Virus record (IMG/VR): IMGVR_UViG_3300025141_001013
Location: 1 to 20,203 of that record
Reading direction: 5' to 3' (one strand)
Length of the DNA: 20,203 nucleotides
Origin: a virus
Shown here: piece after piece, positions 398-18,708 of the stretch
How the letters are laid out: every line of letters starts with the position of its first letter
Position numbering within the stretch: position 1 is the stretch's first letter
The notes under the pieces: generated by a model
The model's input: only the letters and a program-made list of their open reading frames with translations
Databases searched by the model: none
Told to the model about the DNA's origin: nothing
Program-made: the position numbers and the translations under genes

Positions 398-1233
398 GTG
401 TATTCTTGTATTGCGTTAGTGTGGGCAACGCAGAGCCCAAAGTCATCGTGTTCTGTTTCATAGATCGCGTAAGAAATACGTCGAAATGCATTATGAGGTT
501 TTTCCTTAAGCATGTCAACAATCTTCTTATGCAATCCTCCTTCATTTTCTAATTTGTCCTTATTGATACATAGATAATAGCACAGGTCTCGCTCCATGTC
601 AAGGTTATAAAGCCATTTTTCTTCAAGATTTTTAGGATCAATAACCCCATATGTTCGAATACGATTAATATCCAGCGGCTTGGAGATCATTCCAATTTCT
701 GGCTCAGCATGTGTAAAATAATTGATGTAATGGACTGTGGAAAATATCGATTCATTGATCTTTTCGTAGTACGACTTGATGGGAATATTTCCAATAGATT
801 TTTCGATCATTGTATTCGACAAAGGAGTAAAAGAGTTCAATAGGCCTGATCTCGCATACTCCTGTAAAATACTAAATACCACCTTATCTAAGACCTTGGG
901 GATCCCCGTCATAAGCTCCGTGTCGGGAGCAATATAAAAAAGGTCTACTTTTTTGTTTTTAAGCTGCTCAAGAACGCCAAGTGAATAGTTGGAGCTGTAC
1001 GAAGAGCCTACCACAAAAAATTGCACATGATCGTCAATCTCTGCAAAAAACTTGGCCACGTTGGGAATATTTTTTTCATACTCTTCGGCATTCTCGTATG
1101 ATTTTAGTTTAAATTTATACTTTGAGTTTCGCTGAACTTTGTCGTTCATCGTGTATACATTATAGTTTTTAGTTTTCTTGAACTTTTCGGCAACTCTAGA
1201 GGCCGCATTGCCTAGCCCCACAATCGAAATCAT
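394..1233 (-). CDS. Putative FtsZ/tubulin-like protein with degenerate GTPase motifs
   Basis: 279 residues. Several stretches fit the FtsZ/tubulin fold in order. An N-terminal strand and glycine turn, IVGLGNAASRVAEKF (4-18), resembles the FtsZ VGVGGGGGNAVNRM segment. After hydrophobic strand QFFVV (71-75), GSSYSSN (76-82) sits where FtsZ has its GTP signature GGGTGTG. Next come strand VDLFYIAPD (96-104), a helix (112-128), TPLSN (136-140, compare IPND) and a long helix (153-172). IGMISKPLDINRIRT (180-194) lines up with the T7 loop of FtsZ; one aspartate (D188) is kept, but the other two acidic/amide positions appear to be P and R. The start ATG overlaps the polymerase stop as ATGA, so it is translationally coupled, with no clear ribosome site. 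Known phage tubulins (PhuZ) position DNA or the phage nucleus. Alternative: a Rossmann-type NAD-binding protein. Fold by eye only; nucleotide hydrolysis is doubtful. Confidence 0.55.
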   Translation of the reverse strand: MISIVGLGNAASRVAEKFKKTKNYNVYTMNDKVQRNSKYKFKLKSYENAEEYEKNIPNVAKFFAEIDDHVQFFVVGSSYSSNYSLGVLEQLKNKKVDLFYIAPDTELMTGIPKVLDKVVFSILQEYARSGLLNSFTPLSNTMIEKSIGNIPIKSYYEKINESIFSTVHYINYFTHAEPEIGMISKPLDINRIRTYGVIDPKNLEEKWLYNLDMERDLCYYLCINKDKLENEGGLHKKIVDMLKEKPHNAFRRISYAIYETEHDDFGLCVAHTNAIQEYT

Positions 1234-2405
1234 AACTTTAGCTCGTTTAGGTTATAATAATCTTTTCCCGCACGAATGTTGGCCAGATATCCATCTTCAA
1301 AAACATCACGAATCCCGATTACAATATCGCGATCCTCGTCCGAGTAGTCAATCACAATCTCATCATGAACAATATGCGAGATAAACGATTTCTTGCCCTC
1401 TAGCATTTTATCAATCAATACAGCTTTCTCCAGCACGCGATCAGCGGTCGTGCTTTGGATTAAATAATTCAATGCCTTTCTCTGTTCCACTTTAATTTTG
1501 CGCCCGTATGGAGTATGAATATAACCGTCTACGTAATACTTGTCAAGAACTTTTTCGCGATCATAATAATCAGAATCAATATCGTTCGATTCAGGGTTGT
1601 ATAACCATGCAAAGAAATAGAGCTTCGCTTCCTCTCGCGTCATTTCTAAATCATTGATTACATTTTGAATATTCCATTCGTGCACATCATAGGGCGGCTG
1701 TTCTTGGCCGCAGAGATCCAACAGTGTGCGTATCTCTGCCCCATTGTAATCAAGGCTCATCATCAAGTTGTTATGAGGCTTTATTATTCTTCTCAAGTCT
1801 TTCTTGAGCGTTAACATGGGAAATGATTCTGGATGTGTTGTGAGGCGCCCAGTGATAGTTCCGAACATGTTATAATCAATGCGCTTAAAGTTCTTCATAA
1901 GCTCTTGGATCTTCTGGCGATTCATGGAAGAATAAAACAAGTGCTTACAGTCTTCGCTATTAAGGTTAAGCTTCTGATAGCGGATCTTATGGAGCAGTTT
2001 ATATACTGCATCTAAATGCTCATAGTTGTCTGGCTTCTCATATGTTTCAAACACATGTTCAGTAATTTTATTTTTAATCTCGCAAAACCGCACAAGGAAA
2101 TCGTGAGGGATCAAATCAAACACGCAATGATCAGCCATATTAACCTTGGCGATCTTGAAAGACTTTAAATAAGCCTTCATTTTTCTTATCGTGGCCTGAA
2201 GTTCATTACACAATTCTTCTGGGCAGCAATCGGTAATATTGCGCCCTCCAGCGCGTATCCATCCATACTCCACCGATGGGTCAGTAATAGATGCGCTATA
2301 CCGCCATGTCTTTGTTAGGTTTTCTGGAAAATTTTCAAACGACAGTTTGCCGTCTGCGTAAATTCCAATGCATTCTGACTTATCGTCAAGTGCTTGAAAT
2401 ATCAA
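1230..2405 (-). CDS. polA: Family A DNA polymerase, polymerase domain without 3'-5' exonuclease
   Basis: 391 residues. Template-directed DNA synthesis is supported by all core motifs. TGRL is at 185-188. Motif A is SLDYNGAEIR (217-226; D219, E224). DVH (240-242) is followed by motif B, R257-x3-K261-x3-F265-x3-Y269, on the O-helix. TPYGRKI (298-304), Q317 and motif C, VHDE (346-349), follow. About 100 N-terminal residues precede the thumb; I see no DEDD exonuclease motifs there, and the fingers region after motif B is short. It is much smaller than T7 polymerase (about 700) or Pol I (about 930). Proofreading, if any, must come from another protein. The start is TTG at 2405, chosen because GGAGG (2416-2412) lies 6 bases upstream and the next in-frame Met is at residue 76. 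It overlaps the stop of the upstream virion gene by 4 bases (TTGA) and runs into the tubulin-like gene by 4 bases (ATGA). Confidence 0.9.
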   Translation of the reverse strand: MIFQALDDKSECIGIYADGKLSFENFPENLTKTWRYSASITDPSVEYGWIRAGGRNITDCCPEELCNELQATIRKMKAYLKSFKIAKVNMADHCVFDLIPHDFLVRFCEIKNKITEHVFETYEKPDNYEHLDAVYKLLHKIRYQKLNLNSEDCKHLFYSSMNRQKIQELMKNFKRIDYNMFGTITGRLTTHPESFPMLTLKKDLRRIIKPHNNLMMSLDYNGAEIRTLLDLCGQEQPPYDVHEWNIQNVINDLEMTREEAKLYFFAWLYNPESNDIDSDYYDREKVLDKYYVDGYIHTPYGRKIKVEQRKALNYLIQSTTADRVLEKAVLIDKMLEGKKSFISHIVHDEIVIDYSDEDRDIVIGIRDVFEDGYLANIRAGKDYYNLNELKL

Positions 2406-8211: not shown

Positions 8212-9444
8212 TTATTTATCTCCTTTGCCGTTCCATCGCCAACCCTTGGGATAAGTTTTAACAGTGTCGGTAGTAGGGCCACCGGGCAGAATACCGCCCA
8301 CCCATGCATCTGCTGTGCGGTAGCGGTTGGCCCAGCTTTGCTGGCGCGTGGGGCCGCTAGGATCAGTTTGCGGTGTGGGACTAAGCGATGCATCGGTGGC
8401 AGCAGGTCCACTATCTATGCCCGGGTTTACAAGCAGGCCAACGGTTGCTTCCACCACGATTGACATCGCATCTGCAATAAGTCCATCAAGCATAGCTTCA
8501 ACGGATCCGGGAGATGTGTCAGCCTCTTCATTAGCAGATTCGGGCGACGATTCGACTGATTCCGCAACCAAATTGTCAGCCTCATCTAGACCTTCCGTTA
8601 TATTGGTTGCAGCCTGAGAAGCGGCCTCGCTGATCTCGCGAGCCATGGCGCTTTCATCGACCAAAGTAACTCCATAAGGGAACGTCTCCCCATTTGCTGT
8701 CGTGGCCGCGGCCCGATCTTTAGAGTTGTAGGTGGTACCTTTGCCAAAGACCCCATCCAGATCCCAACCCAAAGGATGTTCGTGGATAGGCTCAAAATCC
8801 AAATTTATTTCCAGCACTTTAGGCAAAATAGCTTGAAAGCCTGTAGAATTACCTTTTTCTATAACTCCGGATTCTTGCTCTATATTATGCAGAACATTGA
8901 CATTGGTTATAACTCCCAGGAGACCCTCTCCGTTCATATCATAATTTTCATACATCAGTGTGGCTGCGGTCATAGGACTTGCCTTATTCTCAACACTGTT
9001 AATATTTCTTAATAAATTCATAAATTTAATCCGCACTAGAGGTGAACGCGAAATAGTTTGCGAAACGGAGTCTTCGGCTTGTTGGATATATGTTGGATAT
9101 AAAAATTGCATTAATTTTTGCACCTTTCCAAGATTTTCGTAAGCCTCTCCTGTGGTGGTTGCCGGCACTTTAAATCCTAGAGTAATTTTTCTACGGGTGT
9201 TCTTAAAGATAGGAATCGGGTCGGCGCGGCCGTATACCTCTTCAGTTGTCCAATCGCTGGCGTATGTCTCAGTAAAAGTCGTAACGAAAGCTTTAAAATA
9301 TACTGTAACGTCATTATCTTCCTTGGTCGCAATTCGCGTGATGCCTATTTTCATGCCCTTGTTGGCCATGCTTTCGGCAATAGGGCGGTTCAGCATTTTG
9401 CCGCCGTATCTTAGGTAATTGAATTGTTCGTAAAATTCTGACAT
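8212..9444 (-). CDS. Tube/baseplate-type structural protein, paralogue B
   Basis: 410 residues. The first 240 or so match the preceding gene: both have YFKAF-T-TF near residue 50, DPI--FKNT-R-I-L-F--P-, GEAYENLG-VQ-L-QFLYPTY, SPLVR-K-MNL, GVIEKGN-TG-QAILPK and the sequence PIHEHP-GWD. The remaining C-terminal part is different: acidic, Ser/Glu/Ala-rich, then Pro/Thr-rich, ending WRWNGKGDK. The pattern resembles proteins that sit next to LysM baseplate genes in T4-like marine phages, where a tube-cap or tube-initiator role (T4 gp48/gp54-like) would be expected; this role is inferred from position. The ATG overlaps the stop of the paralogue by 1 base (TAATG), with GGAG just upstream, so the two are co-translated. 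Confidence 0.65.
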   Translation of the reverse strand: MSEFYEQFNYLRYGGKMLNRPIAESMANKGMKIGITRIATKEDNDVTVYFKAFVTTFTETYASDWTTEEVYGRADPIPIFKNTRRKITLGFKVPATTTGEAYENLGKVQKLMQFLYPTYIQQAEDSVSQTISRSPLVRIKFMNLLRNINSVENKASPMTAATLMYENYDMNGEGLLGVITNVNVLHNIEQESGVIEKGNSTGFQAILPKVLEINLDFEPIHEHPLGWDLDGVFGKGTTYNSKDRAAATTANGETFPYGVTLVDESAMAREISEAASQAATNITEGLDEADNLVAESVESSPESANEEADTSPGSVEAMLDGLIADAMSIVVEATVGLLVNPGIDSGPAATDASLSPTPQTDPSGPTRQQSWANRYRTADAWVGGILPGGPTTDTVKTYPKGWRWNGKGDK

Positions 9445-10760
9445 TAGTACTCCGCGGACTGCGATTCCTGCACCCGGCCATAATGGCCGCCTGGCTCGGC
9501 AGGCGCCGACTCAGGCGCCTTGGCGGGCGCCGACTCAGGCGCCTTGGCGGGCGCAGGCTCGGGCGCGTCCGCTTCCGCGGCGGGCTTGACTGCGGCTGCA
9601 GCTTCTTTCTCTTTACGTCTCTTCTCCGCTGCTCGGGCATCGGCCTTTCTCTTTGCTTCGGCGTCGTCGCGCGCTTGGCGTACTTCTGCTAGCATCATCT
9701 CCGTCGCCGTCTGCATCTCGTCAATGGCCGCTTGCGATGCTTGGAGCAGCTCCTGACGCTCCCAATACTCGTCCCATGGTGTTCCATCTGGGCCCACGGC
9801 CACGCCATCAGCCCCATAATAGGGCACCACTATACCGGACAGGGGTCCTTCGCCAATATCGTCTCCAAGGGTACCATCAAGAAAAGCTTGAACCACGGGA
9901 TTTACCTCGGAACCCTCGCTAAGGTTAGCGCTGCCATCTGTGGCTTGGCCAACAATTTTTGTATCGGCAGCGGAAGTATTTTGTTCTGCTTTGGAGCCAG
10001 CTGGCGGATCATAATCTTTGAGCTGAACGCCATAAGGAAAGAGTTGGCCCTCTTCGTTCTTAAAAACTCCAAATTGATCGTGTTCATCCCATCCTACTGG
10101 ATGCTCATGAATAGGGTCGAAATCAAGAGTGATTTCAATAGCTTTAGGAAGAATAGCCTGCAGGCCTGTCTTATTGCCTTTTTCGATGACCCCTGTGTCT
10201 TCGGCCAAATTATGATCAATGCTGATGTTTGGGATAGTGCCGAGTAGACCGCTACCCTCGAAATCATACTCATCAAACATAGACGCTTCTGATAGCGCAT
10301 TATTAAAAGTAAGAGTACTGCAATCACGAACGAGATTCATCACCTTTAAGCGAACAAGGGGCGACTGAACAATGGTTTGCGCTTGTGCGGGGTCCTTGTA
10401 GGTGGGATATAAAAACTGCGCCAATTGTTGGACTCTCCCTAAGTTTTCATATGCTTCGCCTTTATTTTCAGCCGGCACCACAAACGCCAGCGAAATTGTC
10501 CTCTTGGTATTTTTAAACATGTAAATGGGGTCCATGTGCCCCAACACTTGTTCGGTGGCCCAACTAGGCTTATATGCCTCAGCAAAAGTAGTAATAAATG
10601 CCTTAAAGTAAATACTTTTACCAGTCGGAACATGGGTAAATTCCAAATACATGCCCCGATCGGCCATGGAATCCGTGAATGATCGCTGCAGCGTATCCTC
10701 CTTTGTTGAGGCGTACCGTAAATAATTAAAGTTAACTGGATTCGTATAGAATTCCGACAT
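9444..10760 (-). CDS. Tube/baseplate-type structural protein, paralogue A
   Basis: 438 residues. The N-terminal 250 or so residues are homologous to the next gene downstream; over about 70 residues from YFKAF to QFLYPTY roughly two thirds are identical by eye. The C-terminus is different: a long charged helix with ERQELLQASQAAIDEMQ and AAEKRRKEKEAAAA, then a Pro/Ala/Glu linker with repeated KAPESAPA and a short GGHYGRVQESQSAEY tail. The linker is more GC-rich than its surroundings and encoded by tandem DNA repeats. ATG at 10760 follows an AGGAG site. It sits between the tape measure and the LysM gene, where tail-tube initiation and baseplate hub genes usually lie. Two tandem copies suggest stacked rings with related folds, as for tube and tube-cap proteins; that is inference. 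Confidence 0.65.
   Translation of the reverse strand: MSEFYTNPVNFNYLRYASTKEDTLQRSFTDSMADRGMYLEFTHVPTGKSIYFKAFITTFAEAYKPSWATEQVLGHMDPIYMFKNTKRTISLAFVVPAENKGEAYENLGRVQQLAQFLYPTYKDPAQAQTIVQSPLVRLKVMNLVRDCSTLTFNNALSEASMFDEYDFEGSGLLGTIPNISIDHNLAEDTGVIEKGNKTGLQAILPKAIEITLDFDPIHEHPVGWDEHDQFGVFKNEEGQLFPYGVQLKDYDPPAGSKAEQNTSAADTKIVGQATDGSANLSEGSEVNPVVQAFLDGTLGDDIGEGPLSGIVVPYYGADGVAVGPDGTPWDEYWERQELLQASQAAIDEMQTATEMMLAEVRQARDDAEAKRKADARAAEKRRKEKEAAAAVKPAAEADAPEPAPAKAPESAPAKAPESAPAEPGGHYGRVQESQSAEY
9503..9574 (-). repeat. Tandem 24-base repeat encoding KAPESAPA linker
   Basis: Two perfect 24-base copies (9503-9526 and 9527-9550) are followed by a degenerate third (about 9551-9574). Each encodes eight residues of the Pro/Ala/Glu linker in paralogue A, in frame, so copy number changes would lengthen or shorten the linker without breaking the gene. 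Each unit contains the palindrome GGCGCC, which could help slippage. Confidence 0.85.
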
Positions 10761-10800: not shown

Positions 10801-13800
10801 TTATTGACCACACATTTGCGTTTTGACTTCGGCCGCAATTATCCCGGTAGCCTCGCCCTTGGTGAGAAGCTGACTAGTTTGGACCGCATCAAGAGTAATC
10901 TTGGCATCACCCACCAATTCGAACGTTTGTGTTTTAGATTCGCCCCCACCTTCCATTTTGCCGCTCATTCTTGCTTTGGTGTCTGCCGGCGCTGCCTGAA
11001 CCGTAATGACGGCTTTCGTGAGGGCATCCATTGCGCCAGTGAAGGCTATCGCCTCGTCTACAGTTGTTTGATTGATTGCTGCCACAAGCTGCTTGACTTG
11101 AGCAATGGTGGCGCTCAAGTCGAGTGTGGCTAAATCGTGCATTTTATCAAATAAAGGATTGTTGGCGCCTACCGATTGTGTGATCTGCCCTCCCAAATCC
11201 GGCAGAGTTATAGTATTAGCAGATTCCAAAGCCATCTTAAGTTGCAGCATTTTCTCGGCGGGCATGCCCCGAAGGTGTTGTTTTATTGAAGCCAGCGATT
11301 CAGCTACTTTGCTAAGACCTTGACCTTTCATGCCGGCTAGAGACGTAAGAAGAAAGGTATAAGGCTCCAACATGGGCCCAACATTCGCGGCCGATTCTTC
11401 TATTTCTTCAAAAACCGCTCCTAACGCCCATAAGCCCAATAGGCCGCCTACTCCCAAGGCAAGTAGGGCGCCTCCCATGAGTGCCACGGCTCCCGCTAAA
11501 GCACTTAAGCCGGCAGCTAGCGTCAATACATCCGTGGCATTTTTAATTGTCAAGGATTTCATCAGTTCGCCCATTCCTTGCGAAACAAGCCACACGGCGC
11601 CGCCCACAAGAGCGAGGGCAGCGGCAAAAATCACCATTGCTTTCGCTGCAGGAATAGAAGCTGGCGACAAGACAGCCATAGTTTTCATCATAATGGCAAT
11701 AGCGAATGTTGCTGCGATAATACCACCAACAGCAGCTTGCGCATTAAATCCCACGGCGCCGAAAGTTTTAGCCAACTCATTGAGAGAAAGAATAATCACG
11801 GCGATACCTACTCCAATACCTACCGCGGCTAGCCCTACCGCCGCAATTGCGCCAGCATATGCCCACGTAGGCCCAGTGGCGCCGAGAGCAGTTCGTCCCT
11901 GCACTCCTTGGCTTACAGATTGCTTATCCAAGGCGCCGCCGGCAAGACCAGATGAAAGCGATTGTTTCTGGCTGGCGCCGCTTTGGCCGCCTGTAAATTT
12001 TATGGATCGCATTTGAGCTGCTGAAAGTCGCGTGACAGATCCCGTTAGCTTGTCGGTGACTCCACCTTGAACAGTGGTGTCCTTAATGTTTTTCATCTGC
12101 TGGACTTGTAATGCATAATATTGCCGTTGGAGGATTGCCAAGCCGCGGGTTTTCCACGCGATACGAGCCGTGTTCAGCAGCCAGATGCCGGCAAGGATAC
12201 TGCCAATTCGAACAACCGACTTGATCCCTCGCACAACTTTTCGAATCGTATCTGGGAAATCGTTCTTGAGATAGTCAATGAGCTTATCCATGCTCGTAAA
12301 CATGCTAATAATCTCATCGGCGTTTGCAGCTATAGCGGCCTGGAATTGCTCCTGAACGGATTGAACTTTTTGGGATTCTTCGGCTAGCTGTGCGTACTCT
12401 TTGGCACTTTTCTGGGTGGATCCGGCAAGCAGATCAGTTCTTCCCGACATTACCAGGGCCAACTCACTTACGTCCTGAAGTCCTAGTGATTGAGCATAAA
12501 AAATCCGCTGGTAGTATGACATGTCTTTAAATGTGAGGCCCGTATCCATGATGGCATCGCGCATCATCTCAAAACGCTCAACCGGATTTGTTGCCATCAT
12601 AAGATCCATGGCGTTAACCATATTTCCGCCAATCGCCGCATTAAGCTTGCCGGCAGTGGTAGCGGCGCCTTCAAAAGTATCAGCCACGTCTGTCATCTGC
12701 TTAAGTTTACCGATCTCCATGCCTGTGAGCTTGGCTTGGACCTGCAGTTCTTTGAAGATTTGCTTGCCTTCGCCTCCCCACTTGGCCATTTGATTACCGC
12801 TCGCAGCAAAATTGGCAGCTACCTCTGCGGGCGCCATTCCAATTTCTTGTGCAAAAGTGAAAAGATCTCTATTGGCTGCTTCGAGAGCTGGGCCCTGAAG
12901 GCCAAGTATCTTGGTCTGGATCTGGATCATCTTAGCAGACGTTTCAGATGCAACTCCATAGTTTTCGAGAATAGCAGTTGTATCTTGCAAAGATTGGCGC
13001 TGCTGCTCCGACATCATCGTAAAATCAGTAACATTTGTAAAGAGAGCTTTTGCCGCCTTGCTGGCCTCTTCCATAGAAACGCCATACTGTAACGTAGATC
13101 TATAGGTATTGGTCATGCTGCGCGAAAACTCTTCGCTGGCGCCAGTCGTCTTTTCAAATTCTAGCTCTGCGTTAGCCAATCCAAGAACCATATTAAAGAT
13201 GTTGTTAACAAAGCTTCCAATAATACCAAACACAGTACCAGACGCAAAATTAATGATGCTGGCGGTGCCTCCTTGAACTGCTTTGACAAATTTGCCCATC
13301 ATGCCGGCGGCGTCGACACCTGAGAACACCTGAAAAGCTTTACCGAGAGAGTCGCCTAATTGTCCGGCGGCTGCGGCGCCTTCTTCGGCACTAGCCACAA
13401 ATTTCTTCTGGATGCCAAGGAGGGCCTTTTCTGTTTCTACTCTTTTTTCAGATTGTTTTTTTAGTGCAATATACTGCTCTAAAGTCAGCTCGCCCGATTT
13501 AACTTCGGCGTCCATAAGCCGTTGAAGCTCTTGTTCAACCTCAATTCGTTGCATTCGAATTGTGGCATTAGCGCGGAGTCCGACGCCTTCGTCTTGATAT
13601 TGCTTCAGAAGCTTTTGAGACAAGTCGACTCTTTCTTTTGCATAAGCCACGCTTGTTCTTAAAAGCTCTATCTGAGCTTCAAGCCCTTGGATGGTGGCTT
13701 TGAGTCTTTTTTGGCGCTCAGGATCCGAATCTGTGCGCTCGATCTCTTCGTTGATTTCTTTAATCTGCTCTCTAAGCAGGCGTTCTTGTTCTAAACGAGT

Positions 13801-13818
13801 TAGGATGTCATCAGCCAC
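10801..13818 (-). CDS. Tail tape measure protein
   Basis: 1005 residues. An N-terminal coiled coil (about 1-170) with heptad-rich LEQERLLREQIKEINEEIER is followed by a long helical region typical of tape measures (GASEEFSRSMTNTYRSTLQYG, FAQEIGMAPAEVAANFAAS). A hydrophobic Gly/Ala-rich section at about 650-806 has several possible membrane segments, consistent with the tape measure being ejected into the host envelope. The protein sets tail length and scaffolds tube growth. At about 0.15 nm per residue the tail would be near 150 nm, longer than T4 (gp29 is about 590 residues). Start is GTG at 13818 with GAGGAAA upstream; no ATG lies nearby in frame. It is preceded by a terminator and a shared promoter-like motif, so it probably starts its own transcription unit. 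Position after tube and chaperone-like genes is standard. Confidence 0.92.
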   Translation of the reverse strand: MADDILTRLEQERLLREQIKEINEEIERTDSDPERQKRLKATIQGLEAQIELLRTSVAYAKERVDLSQKLLKQYQDEGVGLRANATIRMQRIEVEQELQRLMDAEVKSGELTLEQYIALKKQSEKRVETEKALLGIQKKFVASAEEGAAAAGQLGDSLGKAFQVFSGVDAAGMMGKFVKAVQGGTASIINFASGTVFGIIGSFVNNIFNMVLGLANAELEFEKTTGASEEFSRSMTNTYRSTLQYGVSMEEASKAAKALFTNVTDFTMMSEQQRQSLQDTTAILENYGVASETSAKMIQIQTKILGLQGPALEAANRDLFTFAQEIGMAPAEVAANFAASGNQMAKWGGEGKQIFKELQVQAKLTGMEIGKLKQMTDVADTFEGAATTAGKLNAAIGGNMVNAMDLMMATNPVERFEMMRDAIMDTGLTFKDMSYYQRIFYAQSLGLQDVSELALVMSGRTDLLAGSTQKSAKEYAQLAEESQKVQSVQEQFQAAIAANADEIISMFTSMDKLIDYLKNDFPDTIRKVVRGIKSVVRIGSILAGIWLLNTARIAWKTRGLAILQRQYYALQVQQMKNIKDTTVQGGVTDKLTGSVTRLSAAQMRSIKFTGGQSGASQKQSLSSGLAGGALDKQSVSQGVQGRTALGATGPTWAYAGAIAAVGLAAVGIGVGIAVIILSLNELAKTFGAVGFNAQAAVGGIIAATFAIAIMMKTMAVLSPASIPAAKAMVIFAAALALVGGAVWLVSQGMGELMKSLTIKNATDVLTLAAGLSALAGAVALMGGALLALGVGGLLGLWALGAVFEEIEESAANVGPMLEPYTFLLTSLAGMKGQGLSKVAESLASIKQHLRGMPAEKMLQLKMALESANTITLPDLGGQITQSVGANNPLFDKMHDLATLDLSATIAQVKQLVAAINQTTVDEAIAFTGAMDALTKAVITVQAAPADTKARMSGKMEGGGESKTQTFELVGDAKITLDAVQTSQLLTKGEATGIIAAEVKTQMCGQ

Positions 13819-13860: not shown

Positions 13861-13890
13861 TATAGAAAAAGGCAAAGTTTTCACTTTGCC
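13861..13890 (-). terminator. Rho-independent terminator before tape measure
   Basis: On the minus strand GGCAAAGT (13890-13883), loop GAAA and ACTTTGCC (13878-13871) form a perfect 8-pair stem with a stable GAAA tetraloop, followed directly by TTTTTCTATA. On the plus strand the U-run is missing, so it acts leftward only. It lies 20 bases after the stop of the 73-codon frame and closes the sheath-tube-gp26 unit. Confidence 0.9.
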
Positions 13891-13909
13891 TGTTCTTTGA
13901 TTCAAGATC

Positions 13910-14131
13910 TTATAATTTAGGTTTTCGAGGACCGTTATAGGGAGTTAAAGTTTGAGATGACTGGCTGCCGCTGTTCTTTCCTTCCTCTATGGCATCCTTT
14001 TCAGTCTTAAGCTGCTTAATCAAGCGCTCCAAAAACCACTTACGCAAGCCTACCGGGAGATTATATGCTTCCATAAAAGACCAGCCTCCCGAATATTTCA
14101 GATAAAAGAACTGCTCATACACATTCTCCAT
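13910..14131 (-). CDS. Small tail assembly chaperone-like frame, possibly expressed by frameshift
   Basis: 73 codons from the ATG at 14131. The sequence VYEQFFYLKYSGGWSFMEAYNLPVGLRKWFLERL is a compact helical pattern I associate with a small protein region beside gp26-like genes in T4-like phages; the remainder is polar (GKNSGSQSSQ) and basic. It lies between the tube and the tape measure, where tail assembly chaperones (lambda G/GT type) are encoded. The ATG lacks a ribosome site, unlike nearly every other gene here. The reading frame is open upstream through the preceding stop to 14164, covering a run of seven T in the gp26-like gene; a +1 or -2 shift there would fuse the two products. It could instead be made by re-initiation. 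Function is inferred from position. Confidence 0.65.
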   Translation of the reverse strand: MENVYEQFFYLKYSGGWSFMEAYNLPVGLRKWFLERLIKQLKTEKDAIEEGKNSGSQSSQTLTPYNGPRKPKL

Positions 14132-14135
14132 ATAG

Positions 14136-15002
14136 TTATCGCTTAGGCCAAAAAAAGTCCGCAGTCAGCGGGACCTCCATTTCCTGCGTAAAATCACACT
14201 CTGCACAAGTAAATGTTTCTGCGAGTTCTACATTTGGCGTTGCTACACGGTGGGCGAACCGTAAGTGACGAGAATCCATTGAGGGCATATTTTCGATTAA
14301 ATACTTTCTAGCTGCTCCAGAAGAATCTCCATTAACAGCCACTATAATACTGGCCAATTGGGTGGTAACGTTGTTTTCCACTCCTTTAGTCTTTCCTTTG
14401 CGGCTGGTGGCATATTCAATAACTCTCTTTTCGTCCATTCCTGTTAAAAGCTTAAACGTAACATTAACTTTTGTCATAGGAAGCTCTACTTCAAAGGTGC
14501 CGTCTCCATGATCCACAACCTCTAAATTATCCGAAGCCTCTCCTTCGTGAGATTTCGCTTCGATTAAATTAAACGAATATTCTTGAGTAGCATCACACGC
14601 GGGGCATGCCACCTTTGTTTCATATTCTGCGCCGTATGCTGCAATGCGCGCAGCAATAACTATTGCATTTCTGTCTCCAGTGAGCAAGTAATCGGCATTG
14701 ATACTTTTATCAACGATTAAGTTCTGAATGACCCGATCAAGTGCGACTCCCTTCTTTAATAATGCCCGGGAGGTCAAAATATCCTCTTCTTTGGCAGTCA
14801 TATGTTTGATCTCGATAGTATCCGCGTTGTGGAGCGGGTGAGTTTCAACATAATACTTGCCCCGAGAGGGCAGTTCTACAAAAGTCGTGGGAACAACAAA
14901 AGAAAAGGAGCCGCCCTGATCGTTTGTGTTTTGCGTCGGAGGAGTACCGGCGCCCGTGTTAATGTCTTGTGTTCCCCCAAGACGATCTCTATTTCGTGAC
15001 AA
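14136..15002 (-). CDS. 26: gp26-like baseplate/hub assembly protein with two zinc knuckles
   Basis: 288 residues. After a polar N-terminus (1-32) it has PTTFVELPSRGKYYVETHPLHNADTIEIKHMTAKEEDILTSR (38-79, named here only by its key parts PSRGKYY, HPLH, MTAKEEDIL), the hallmark of the T4 gp26-type baseplate family. CPAC (133-136) and CAEC (266-269) probably bind one zinc together. In T4, gp26 is needed to assemble the baseplate hub. The location between tube and tape measure suggests a tail assembly chaperone role as well. The start is TTG at 15002, supported by GAGG (15012-15009) with a 6-base spacer and by no in-frame Met before residue 68. The zero-frame end is ADFFWPKR; the FF codons are a slippery T7 run that could lead into the next frame, giving about 363 residues. 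Confidence 0.75.
   Translation of the reverse strand: MSRNRDRLGGTQDINTGAGTPPTQNTNDQGGSFSFVVPTTFVELPSRGKYYVETHPLHNADTIEIKHMTAKEEDILTSRALLKKGVALDRVIQNLIVDKSINADYLLTGDRNAIVIAARIAAYGAEYETKVACPACDATQEYSFNLIEAKSHEGEASDNLEVVDHGDGTFEVELPMTKVNVTFKLLTGMDEKRVIEYATSRKGKTKGVENNVTTQLASIIVAVNGDSSGAARKYLIENMPSMDSRHLRFAHRVATPNVELAETFTCAECDFTQEMEVPLTADFFWPKR
14150..14156 (-). other. Candidate slippery site for +1 or -2 frameshift
   Basis: Minus strand codons GAC TTT TTT TGG contain seven T in a row. Moving +1 or -2 here gives GGC CTA AGC GAT AAC TAT ATG, which continues into the 73-codon frame without a stop. That frame is only open from 14164, so the slip must happen in this short stretch. Moving -1 meets TAA after three codons. 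Confidence 0.5.
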
Positions 15003-15040: not shown

Positions 15041-15628
15041 CTACTCATCTTTAATGGTGTCGAAGCGAGTCTCGGCACTGTCGCCGGCACCGACCATCGT
15101 GGCCCAGTCATACTTAAGCGTCATGCTCAGCTCTGTCAAATCATCGCCACCATATTCTAAATCACCAAACTTAAATTCTGTGATGAAGGCATTATGAAGA
15201 GTCCAGGTCTCAATTGAGCCTCCGTCTCCATCAAGTTGTGTAATCACAACGGTGCCTAAAGCTCCTGCAGCAGAAGATTTCGTCATAGTAGTAAACGACG
15301 AATCATCGTCAGGAATTCCATATTTAGCTGCGGCCATAATCGCACCAAACGCATCCGCAACATCGGGGCTAGTGGGATCAACTAACGTAATTGTTACATC
15401 TTGCCACGTAACTGTTCCCGGATAATAAAAAGTGTGATTTAAATACTTATGCTCTGCCGCGGCAACCTGAAAAGATGGCTTCGTGGCTGTCTTTGCAAAC
15501 CACACAGTAGAACCATCTGCCTCAGTCCCGGTGAGGCCCGTAATAGACACTTTAAATCTAAATTTTCTTTTGGGATCTTTGATGGGGGTCGTAGTATCAG
15601 CGAAGTTTTTACTCCAAAAATCAGACAT
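15041..15628 (-). CDS. 19: Tail tube protein, gp19-like
   Basis: 195 residues, close to T4 gp19 (163) with small additions. Typical segments: DPKRKFRFKVSITGL (18-32), WFAKTATKPSF, HKYLNHTFYYPGTVTWQDVTI and LVDPTSPD, then LHNAFITEFKFGDLEYGGDDLTELSMTLKYDWA. These form the beta-barrel subunits that stack into the inner tube. ATG at 15628 follows AAGGAG about 10 bases upstream. It directly follows the sheath gene, as in T4, and has a promoter-like ACTATTTA in the 47-base gap, consistent with the need for many copies. Confidence 0.93.
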   Translation of the reverse strand: MSDFWSKNFADTTTPIKDPKRKFRFKVSITGLTGTEADGSTVWFAKTATKPSFQVAAAEHKYLNHTFYYPGTVTWQDVTITLVDPTSPDVADAFGAIMAAAKYGIPDDDSSFTTMTKSSAAGALGTVVITQLDGDGGSIETWTLHNAFITEFKFGDLEYGGDDLTELSMTLKYDWATMVGAGDSAETRFDTIKDE

Positions 15629-15675: not shown

Positions 15676-18600
15676 TTAGTCATCGAATGATGCTCCGGTG
15701 GACATAATCACAAAGTCAATCGCGATGTACTCAATTGCTCTTGTGGGCTTGACCATAATCTTCGCATATAAAATGTTCTGATCAATAAGATCGGGGGTCG
15801 TAGTGCTATCATCTAAAATCAGACGATAATCAGAGATACCATACGCAGTCTTGGTGTTGGCCAACAGCGGGTCAATTAAGGCCTTAAAGTTGATCCACGT
15901 GGCTGCGGTGTTCTGCTCAAACAACACCTGATTAGAAAGAATGGAAATCTGCTTCTTGAGATAGATAACGAGTCTTCTGACATTGATGCGGTCAAGAGCC
16001 GACAGCTTCTCCTGGAGCGTCTTTTGTCCAAATACCACAATTCCAGTAGATGGGAAGGACGCAATCGGATTAATTCTGCTCTCGTATAGGGTATCGCGGT
16101 CCGTCGAAGTAAGCTTCTCTGTCACATTGGTAATGGGGATTCCAGCGGCGCCATCCGAGAGGCCTCCTCGATTAAAGCCTGCAGGAGCAAACCAAACCTG
16201 AGTGGAAGCTTCAGAGCTAGCGAAAACACCCATCATAGCCACACTAGGCGGCACCCACAAAAGGCGTCCTGTGTTAGAATCACGTGTCTGGACCCATGGG
16301 TAGAAAGTACAACCATAACTAGAGTCAATTCTACGGTCTCTCAAGTCATTAGCAGCATTGGTCGGAGTTGTTCCGATACGCTGGTCCTTAGAGTTGTAGT
16401 ATGCCTCTGCGGATGGAATGTATACATTCGCGAGATCAATAACTGCCATCGCATCGCCGCGATCGGCACATACGTTAATCATGTGTTCTGTCAGCGAATT
16501 AACAGTTAAGCCAGGGGCTGCCAATAAATTCATATTGAGAGTTTCTGGATCCGCCACAATGTCAATGGCCCTCTTATAAGTCGCGTAGGCGTAAGAATTG
16601 TCCTCGCTTACACTAGTAATATCGGTCATTCCCTTGTTGTAGAGAGGATCGGGCTTCAAGATATCAAAGCCATCGGCGCCGCCCCAGAAAGGTGCAGTAA
16701 ATTGGTTATATCCCGAATTCAACAGGGTCTCATAAGACGTGCTACCCACGGAAATTCCTCCTGCGCGCGATCCTGACCTATAGAAATAAGCGCTGTTCGC
16801 ATCCTGCGCAATGTCATCCATAGAGAAGACATAAGTCCACGAATCAACTCCGGTAACAGAGTTTTTGGCCGGGGTTTGGCCGGCAACCGGATCATCTACA
16901 AAGTCAGAATACAAAAGGCGATGCATGTCTGCGTAGCTGGTTCCAGCAACCGACGACGAGACCGTGCGTGTATTCATAAAGCCCCAATAAGCCTTCTTGG
17001 GATCTGAGAAGTTTCCATGGGAGGCGGACTCGCGAAGGCGATCTACTGGGAAGTAGAGCGAAGCCGTAAGTCCACGCTGAACCGGGTCGGCATCGCCGAG
17101 GGTGAGGAGGCAGTGGCCACCACTAATGAATGAATTGGCTCCGAGGCCGGTGCCGGCGGGCGCGGGCTTGGGGAGGGTGACCTGCAGGCCTCGCTGGTTG
17201 CTGTTGGGTATACCTCCGGAAGTAATTAAGAACTTGGTGGTAGAGGTCCCTGCGCTAGGCCCGGAAGAAGATAAGATGGGGGTAAACCCAGGAGGTCCGA
17301 AATATCCGAAAGGAAGCAGGCGCGAATCGCTAGCTCCTACTTCCACATCCTCGTTCAGTTCGACATATACGTAAGCAGACTTATTATCATAATCTCCGTA
17401 ATACTTAACACGTCGATTTGTGGCATCCCACTTAGCATACTTGTCTCCAATCTTTCGTGCAATGAAATTCTCGGAAGACGGATCCAATGTACAGTTATCA
17501 AATCTCTCAACTATTTGTGGATCTGCGTCAGTATCAAGCAACTGTCGCAACACTACTGAGAATGTGCCATAATCGCTAGTGGTACTCGTCGATGCGCGCA
17601 CTTTTGTAATTGAGACTTTAAGGTTCTTCTGTATCCACGCGCCATGGCCTCTTCCTTTAAGACGGAAAAGCTTTGCCATTTGGGCCGGCTTATATGTTCC
17701 ATAGTCACCAGAAAGATCCTGACCAATAAACCAGCCGGCCGCGGCCTCACGTGAAGGCTGCGATTTCATATTGTGAGGGCCCGTGGCCGTGGTACCGCTG
17801 AGGGCAATTCCATAAATAACGCCATGCATGGGTTGGCTGGCCAACGAAGTGGTACCAGAAATCATGTAGTTGCGTACATTATCTTCGAAAGATTCCCCTA
17901 CCCAAATATGATCCTGAGTTCCGTAAAAGGTTCCGGAGGCATTCAAAAGCTGTGGGTTTGTATTAAACTTGCGTCGGATGAATGTGTCCTGATCGTCTTG
18001 GAATCCGAATTGAATAGTGTGCTGGGCTTGGCTCGAATCGGTGTAGATGGCTGTAAAAACACCATTGGTGTCGGAGCCAATGGCACACGTTGTGCCTTTC
18101 CATGCACTTCCGATACGGGCGCCGCGCATAGTACCAGTGAGCATAATCGATCCGCTGTTCATGTACCAAATTGCAGCCAAAATACCGGCGGATCCACCAC
18201 CGCAAGGCTCGCCCCCGGGCGTGACCATCTCGGGAGGATCATACATATTGTTAGTACTTCCGGAAGGAAAGACCCAGAGACCATAAGCCCCTCCTACGGT
18301 TATATCCGTAGAATCTTGGGCTCCTAAGTTGTTTGTAGTTTTCCAGCCTGCGGCTGCATCTCCTCCAGCAGCAGAGCCAACAGATGTCTGCTCTCCGAGA
18401 AGGCGAATATAAGTAACTGGCGCAACGTTTGCGTGCAAGAAAGCTTTGGCGGCATAAGTGCCATACATTGGCGATTGATAATTACCATCGCGATATACAT
18501 CACCGCCGGCGCGTCCAGGCACCGTGTCGCCAAAAACATCAATAAAATCAGCAAATGACTGCACAACGGTGGGGGTCATAGCCAATCCTTTTCCGGATCT

Positions 18601-18708
18601 GCCGATAATGACAGGGCCGATAGCGGCGGGGGTGGCTGGGCGTTCCGAATTGTCTATTTCATTAATAAACACTCCAGGAGATACAAATTTAAAACTACTT
18701 ACGGACAT
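15676..18708 (-). CDS. 18: Tail sheath protein, gp18-like, unusually long
   Basis: 1010 residues against 659 in T4 gp18. The N-terminus SFKFVSPGVFINEIDNSERP and GPVIIGRSGKG, then VQSFADFIDVFGD and AKAFLHANVAPVTYIRLLG (to about 110) are the classic sheath start. The C-terminal 150 residues are the conserved contractile core: LYESRINPIASFPSTGIVVFGQKTL, RINVRRLVIYLKKQI, and the closing strand region VKPTRAIEYIAIDFVIMSTG. Between them is a large Gly/Ser/Thr-rich, beta-like insertion (about 115-650) that probably forms surface domains on the sheath. The protein polymerises around the tube and contracts at infection. ATG at 18708 follows GAGGAAC. The gene sits after the neck genes and before the tube, as in T4, with a 110-base leader. 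Confidence 0.95.
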   Translation of the reverse strand: MSVSSFKFVSPGVFINEIDNSERPATPAAIGPVIIGRSGKGLAMTPTVVQSFADFIDVFGDTVPGRAGGDVYRDGNYQSPMYGTYAAKAFLHANVAPVTYIRLLGEQTSVGSAAGGDAAAGWKTTNNLGAQDSTDITVGGAYGLWVFPSGSTNNMYDPPEMVTPGGEPCGGGSAGILAAIWYMNSGSIMLTGTMRGARIGSAWKGTTCAIGSDTNGVFTAIYTDSSQAQHTIQFGFQDDQDTFIRRKFNTNPQLLNASGTFYGTQDHIWVGESFEDNVRNYMISGTTSLASQPMHGVIYGIALSGTTATGPHNMKSQPSREAAAGWFIGQDLSGDYGTYKPAQMAKLFRLKGRGHGAWIQKNLKVSITKVRASTSTTSDYGTFSVVLRQLLDTDADPQIVERFDNCTLDPSSENFIARKIGDKYAKWDATNRRVKYYGDYDNKSAYVYVELNEDVEVGASDSRLLPFGYFGPPGFTPILSSSGPSAGTSTTKFLITSGGIPNSNQRGLQVTLPKPAPAGTGLGANSFISGGHCLLTLGDADPVQRGLTASLYFPVDRLRESASHGNFSDPKKAYWGFMNTRTVSSSVAGTSYADMHRLLYSDFVDDPVAGQTPAKNSVTGVDSWTYVFSMDDIAQDANSAYFYRSGSRAGGISVGSTSYETLLNSGYNQFTAPFWGGADGFDILKPDPLYNKGMTDITSVSEDNSYAYATYKRAIDIVADPETLNMNLLAAPGLTVNSLTEHMINVCADRGDAMAVIDLANVYIPSAEAYYNSKDQRIGTTPTNAANDLRDRRIDSSYGCTFYPWVQTRDSNTGRLLWVPPSVAMMGVFASSEASTQVWFAPAGFNRGGLSDGAAGIPITNVTEKLTSTDRDTLYESRINPIASFPSTGIVVFGQKTLQEKLSALDRINVRRLVIYLKKQISILSNQVLFEQNTAATWINFKALIDPLLANTKTAYGISDYRLILDDSTTTPDLIDQNILYAKIMVKPTRAIEYIAIDFVIMSTGASFDD

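Follow-up and report, generated by a model that had tools for sequence, protein, structure and literature searches.

The gp26-like gene of the marine virus contig studied here and the short reading frame that follows it very probably form a tail assembly chaperone pair of the lambda G/GT type, in which both products would be made from one gene by a +1 frameshift. The window, that is the whole stretch of DNA that was analysed, is a 20,203-base IMG/VR virus contig carrying a contractile-tail module on the minus strand (Table 1). The first-pass annotation had proposed that a +1 or -2 frameshift at a run of seven T fuses the gp26-like protein to the 73-codon frame; a fusion of this kind is supported by the conservation of the slip site and of the overlap, and by an ATG that appears dispensable. 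The frame relation, the dispensable ATG, the slip-site variants, the single gene copy and the constraint upstream of the junction are read directly from the sequences, and from them we infer the occurrence and efficiency of slippage, the role of a stimulator and the chaperone function.

In the proposed mechanism, most ribosomes would read the gp26-like frame to its stop, producing a short form of 288 aa. In a minority of them the tRNA-Phe placed in the P-site on UUU, with UGG in the A-site, would slip forward by one base (UUU_U to UUU); in the window, the P-site UUU (14153-14151) would re-pair at UUU (14152-14150) and GGC (14149-14147) would be the next codon in place of UGG. The slipped ribosomes would then continue in the +1 frame through the 73-codon frame, leading to a long form of 363 aa. 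The +1 slip is probably stimulated by a G-rich and hairpin element within the 24 nt upstream, which would form a duplex adjacent to the E-site. As in lambda, the two forms would be expected to coat the tape measure protein in a fixed ratio and to recruit subunits of the tail tube.

Two IMG/VR scans together with the window provided 158 sequences with both genes, corresponding to 121 distinct fused products, here named window-type. Two further lineages, retrieved with the gp26-like protein alone and thus unselected for the downstream frame, added 126 distinct junctions; in total, the comparison covered about 240 distinct junctions, belonging to three lineages, and 186 distinct sites entered the slip-site tally.

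Table 1. Features of the window and of the gp26-like locus (coordinates refer to the window)
Feature	Position	Strand	Remarks
Tail sheath	15676-18708	-	1010 aa
Tail tube protein, upstream neighbour	15041-15628	-	PHROG 4542, E 1e-28; PF06841
gp26-like ORF	14136-15002	-	288 aa, TTG start
GGAGG element in coding sequence	14174-14178	-	20 nt upstream of shift codon
CCGC-UGACU-GCGG, putative stem-loop on E-site side of slip site	14159-14171	-	synonymous constraint, folding
T7 run	14150-14156	-	
+1 slip site TTT TTT TGG	14148-14156	-	186 distinct sites compared
+1-frame extension	13910-14149	-	79 aa from GGC; the 73-codon ORF is the part after the ATG
73-codon ORF	13910-14131	-	stop at 13910
ATG of 73-codon ORF	14129-14131	-	internal Met codon; no conserved start
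Terminator-like 9-bp stem, T-rich flanks/tail	13870-13891	-	pattern match only
Putative tape measure gene, downstream neighbour	10801-13818	-	1005 aa; basis is length and position
Tandem paralogous ORFs	8212-9444 and 9444-10760	-	abutting
Family A DNA polymerase-like ORF	1230-2405	-	391 aa; PF00476, E 4e-11

The gp26-like gene lies between the tail tube and tape measure genes in the window and, in the same order, in two cultured phages that have the junction, Flavobacterium phage immuto and Microcystis phage Mel-JY01. The putative tape measure protein of the window had no match in Pfam or PHROG; the immuto gene at this position is annotated as tail tape measure. The terminator-like stem follows the 73-codon frame and separates the chaperone unit from the tape measure gene. 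As for the rest of the window, the PHROG 23 match of the sheath protein (about 450 positions) is scattered along its full length, which suggests large insertions in this protein. The two abutting ORFs beyond the tape measure gene are tandem paralogues, with 45% identity over 333 aa and no Pfam family, and a short ORF resembling family A DNA polymerases is found near the tail module. Neither Rfam families nor tRNAs were detected in the window.

The junction and the ATG of the downstream frame

On the minus strand, the gp26-like gene ends with GAC (14159-14157), TTT (14156-14154), TTT (14153-14151), TGG, CCT, AAG, CGA and the stop TAA (14138-14136), followed by CTAT and the ATG (14131-14129). 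The 73-codon frame is +1, or equivalently -2, relative to the gp26-like frame; it was confirmed to be open from 14164, after a stop at 14165-14167, across the T7 run and into the 73-codon ORF, and its translation reads FFGLSDNYMENVYEQ, ending with the stop at 13910. Taken by itself, the window has 11 open codons upstream of the ATG, as often happens by chance; it is the comparison with the relatives that makes the extension significant.

The +1 relation was found in 158/158 sequences with both genes; the gp26-like stop occupies one of two positions, which leaves a gap of 4 or 7 nt. In the other two lineages, 122 of the 126 junctions were complete and +1 by script; three more are truncated contigs, and the last one (L330), assigned to another frame by script, is +1 on inspection. 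The motif FFGL(T/S)xxY is kept in nearly all of the approximately 240 junctions, and reads FFGLTPEYR in the other two lineages. The information per position acquires a three-base periodicity in the +1 frame from the slip site onwards, well ahead of the ATG. The codon immediately before the ATG, which lies outside the gp26-like ORF, specifies Tyr in 120/121 products (TAT 77, TAC 43) and His in the remaining one.

It is very unlikely that the 73-codon frame is a separate gene translated by termination-reinitiation at the ATG after the gp26-like stop. The distance of 4-7 nt between stop and ATG, observed in the window and in 102/121 window-type products, is typical of translational coupling; however, the remaining 19/121 have ATT, ATA, TCA, GCA, AAT or CTC at this position, as expected from the first-pass annotation, which held that the ATG need not be conserved in homologues. 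In the other two lineages, cultured immuto and Mel-JY01 included, the position is mostly occupied by Arg or Lys, and no Met occurs within the first 25 post-slip residues in 106/121 cases; in immuto, the +1 frame has no ATG before codon 44 of 80. Among the sequences compared, L152 and L158 lack any in-frame start upstream, and downstream the first 36-42 codons contain none either. Reinitiation also leaves unaccounted for the conservation, with wobble variation, of the Tyr and of other +1 codons upstream of the ATG. Moreover, the ATG falls inside the first predicted helix of the extension, which begins upstream of it. Finally, the earlier statement that the ATG has no ribosome-binding site proved correct: Shine-Dalgarno pairing there averages -1.7 kcal/mol, versus -2.1 at random positions and -7.2 at the gp26-like start, and no site that would serve a separate 73-codon gene was found. 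Alongside the frameshift, reinitiation could add a separate short product from this ATG in most window-type sequences.

In the cultured phages the two parts are annotated apart. The immuto record (L161, 6833-6943) lists a small ORF with an internal start, immuto26A_233, and that of Mel-JY01 (L160, 6734-6970) a separate overlapping ORF, WWT39326.1; neither is joined to the gp26-like gene. Two far relatives, LR756508 and vB_SagM-GXN1, fit the scheme with UUU_C, and scans with their proteins returned no or one relative. In the 595 kb phage LR756511.1 (L163, 6718-6900), the gp26-like gene ends differently and the junction was not evident; an ATG-bearing frame, YLMDEQFFFLYHLHVGRKDF, follows it in another phase and may be a separate-gene or other-frame version.

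Slip site and direction of the shift

Among the 186 distinct sites, TTT TTT TGG is found 146 times, TTT CTT TGG 21, TTC TTT TGG 10, TTT CTA TGG 3, CTT TTT TGG 3, TTT TTT TAC 2 and TTT CTT TAC once; the codon pairs preceding UGG or UAC are thus TTT TTT (148), TTT CTT (22), TTC TTT (10), TTT CTA (3) and CTT TTT (3). The invariant feature is UUU_U, CUU_U or UUU_C followed by UGG or UAC, and in 183/186 sites the second codon is CUU_U or UUU_U. Re-pairing after a +1 slip is possible at one or both codons in 186/186 sites. The expectation that homologues would keep both the overlap and the T-run held for the overlap and for the slip site as such, but not for the run of seven T, which is lacking in 38/186 sites (about 20%). 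Since these sites have no T7 run, the general mechanism would be +1 ribosomal slippage, and neither a -2 shift nor slippage of the polymerase.

The base preceding TTT TTT or TTT CTT is a T in 0/170 distinct sites, compared with 38% T at the third positions of the gene, and the only 7 preceding T's stand before TTC. The absence of a T before the site indicates that the -1 heptamer U_UUU_UUU and an eighth T are avoided.

Hairpin-aided slippage of the RNA polymerase on the T7 run, yielding mRNAs with one U less or two more in which the frames are fused, appears extremely unlikely. The combination of a hairpin and a U-run resembles stem-loop-mediated transcriptional slippage (Penno 2015, as cited in PMC5009743), and the members with T7 are compatible with it; however, the sites devoid of T7 (TTTCTTTGG, TTCTTTTGG, TTTCTATGG, CTTTTTTGG and others) keep the fusion frame unchanged. 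A -2 ribosomal shift of the Mu type, the other direction left open by the first-pass annotation, is hardly credible, since, although it leads to the same frame as +1 and could re-pair at T7 sites, re-pairing would be mismatched at 35/186 sites (TTT to TCT in 10, CTT to TTC in 22, CTA to TTC in 3), where a +1 slip re-pairs at one of the two codons.

The site proposed for +1 slippage resembles that of prfB, encoding RF2, in having CUU_U or UUU_U followed by U as shift codon and a duplex element upstream. Differently from prfB, where the A-site codon is UGA, here it is a sense codon, UGG or UAC, and no Shine-Dalgarno sequence is found 3 nt from the shift codon. RF2 itself uses CUU_U, with UUU_U as a natural minority variant (PMC5009743).

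A putative stimulator upstream of the slip site

In window-type sequences, synonymous constraint in the gp26-like gene peaks at residues 276-288, just upstream of the slip, with GAG in 117/118, CCG in 106/118, GCG in 93/98 and GAC in 95/105 sequences. The overlapping +1 frame accounts for the constraint on the post-slip codons but not for that on the pre-slip codons, since in several sequences, including the window, this frame is closed by a stop a few codons upstream. This suggests a 5' RNA stimulator upstream of the slip site, with two candidate components. The first is GGAGG, present in 88/91 distinct sequences, whose GAG codon is nearly invariant though GAA is commoner elsewhere; it is a possible stimulator or pause site. 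In RF2 the Shine-Dalgarno sequence is placed 3 nt from the shift codon, a spacing that GGAGG, 20 nt away, exceeds.

The second component is the CCGC/GCGG stem region, where the synonymous constraint is the strongest of the gene. In each of the three lineages, the folding of the 24 nt that precede the slip codons is more stable than that of synonymous recodings, with native versus recoded values of -6.2 vs -2.3 kcal/mol in the window-type and of -3.8 vs -2.6 and -4.6 vs -2.8 in the other two. For the window-type, we hypothesize that this stable folding is due to a CCGC/GCGG stem-loop that ends 5 nt before the P-site codon. Covariation lends no support to this stem, as the paired fraction is 0.78 versus 0.77 in shuffles, with paired columns that hardly vary. 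In the immuto-type, a wobble pair (-22/-13) co-varies to some degree (z 3.5, uncorrected for relatedness), the second best of 79 pairs. Since the covariation signal is equivocal and GGAGG lies outside the RF2 distance, the composite element is to be regarded as a candidate stimulator. A hairpin upstream of the slip site, next to the E-site, raises +1 and lowers -1 slipping on 70S ribosomes (PMC6321510). The same work gives 8-11 nt as the range for -1 shifts, which also excludes GGAGG.

Short and long forms and their relation to T4 gp26 and gp51

The gp26-like protein, corresponding to the short form, matches PF12322 (T4_baseplate; T4 gp26/gp51) with E 8.7e-15 and 55.4 bits, versus a cut-off of 24.5, and PHROG 150 with E 7e-17; it carries two Cys-pair motifs, CPAC and CAEC. 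The two halves of the long form were modelled separately, using the window and IMG/VR sequences only. The AlphaFold model of the short form has a pLDDT of 86, and its two best PDB matches are two chains of the HK97 tail assembly chaperone 2OB9, with probabilities of 0.94 and 0.90 and E-values that are weak (0.13 and 0.19); among viral models, the matches include baseplate hub and gp26-like proteins. The extension is predicted to be the C-terminal domain of the long form, composed of three helices, and in its alignment G1, Y6, P32 and R36 are conserved in every row. The 73-aa sequence had no significant match in Pfam or PHROG and none in annotated phages, and the long form had no sequence relative in the PDB.

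In a relaxed local alignment spanning 246 columns (P 8e-4), a profile of the fused product is colinear with the gp51 family from one end to the other; no match was obtained in global mode, and the profile of the extension alone had no significant match to gp51. The junction FFGL falls at DVFKLL of gp51, close to the end of PF12322, and T4 gp26 ends at about the same point (EFFELL). T4 has two PF12322 proteins, gp26 and gp51. Only one gp26-family gene was found in each long frameshift-type contig searched (up to 184 kb), and likewise in the immuto and Mel-JY01 genomes, which gave no PF12322 match and one match each with profile A2. On comparative grounds, T4 gp51 is thus the likely counterpart of the long form, and gp26 that of the short form; put most simply, T4 would use two genes for the two forms, here derived from one gene and a frameshift. 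The first-pass annotation had extended the frameshift scheme to a zinc-knuckle gp26-like protein: the frameshift is supported, whereas the protein appears to be the counterpart of T4 gp26 and gp51 rather than an unrelated zinc protein. Judging from how Vladimirov et al. 2022 is cited by others, we take these two T4 proteins to be the tail assembly chaperones of T4-like phages treated there.

The arrangement resembles lambda gpG/gpGT in the position of the gene between tail tube and tape measure and in a long form whose C-terminal extension lies in an overlapping frame without its own start; it differs in that lambda shifts by -1 on a heptamer, while here the shift would be +1 at UUU_U or CUU_U and the short form belongs to the T4 gp26 family and has Cys-pair motifs. 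T4 gp26/gp51 of the Straboviridae share PF12322 with the window protein, and gp51 aligns with the fused product, but T4 has two genes where the phages studied here would have one gene and a frameshift. The tail chaperone of Halorubrum virus HSTV-2, an archaeal myovirus compared here through its published description, is also very likely produced by +1 frameshifting (PMC5009743). In Pseudomonas phage Adele and other Vandenendeviridae, a T-rich slip site ends the short-form gene and the downstream ORF is annotated apart (PMC12846349), as here; the shift is instead to the -1 frame, at GTTTTT, and the phage group is different.

According to a 2016 review, G/GT frameshifting is widely conserved in long-tailed phages, T4 excepted (PMC5009743). 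With reference to Vladimirov et al. 2022, the authors of PRFect state that, in place of frameshifting, some T4-like phages have two genes, a short one and a long fused one (PMC10885494); the Adele paper relies on the same study in assigning -1 signals of the poly-T type to the chaperone genes of T4-like phages (PMC12846349). No description of +1 frameshifting in the gp26 family was found in the literature searched; Vladimirov et al. 2022 may already note one-gene members.

Hundreds of uncultured relatives, as well as the two cultured phages, have conserved the slip site. Its variants represent a natural series of bacterial +1 sites with a sense A-site codon, of which few examples have been studied. 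The finding also corrects annotation, as the long form is unannotated in immuto and Mel-JY01 and likely also in hundreds of uncultured contigs. We tentatively propose, as a possibility somewhat short of even, that a large branch of gp26-family myoviruses shares a +1 shift with a sense A-site codon, promoted by a composite 5' element made of the G-rich stretch and the E-site-adjacent hairpin and guarded against -1 slipping through the avoidance of an eighth T, and that the T4 pair arose from a duplication replacing ancestral recoding. One-gene +1 frameshifting within the same family would connect the G/GT arrangement with the two-gene arrangement of T4.
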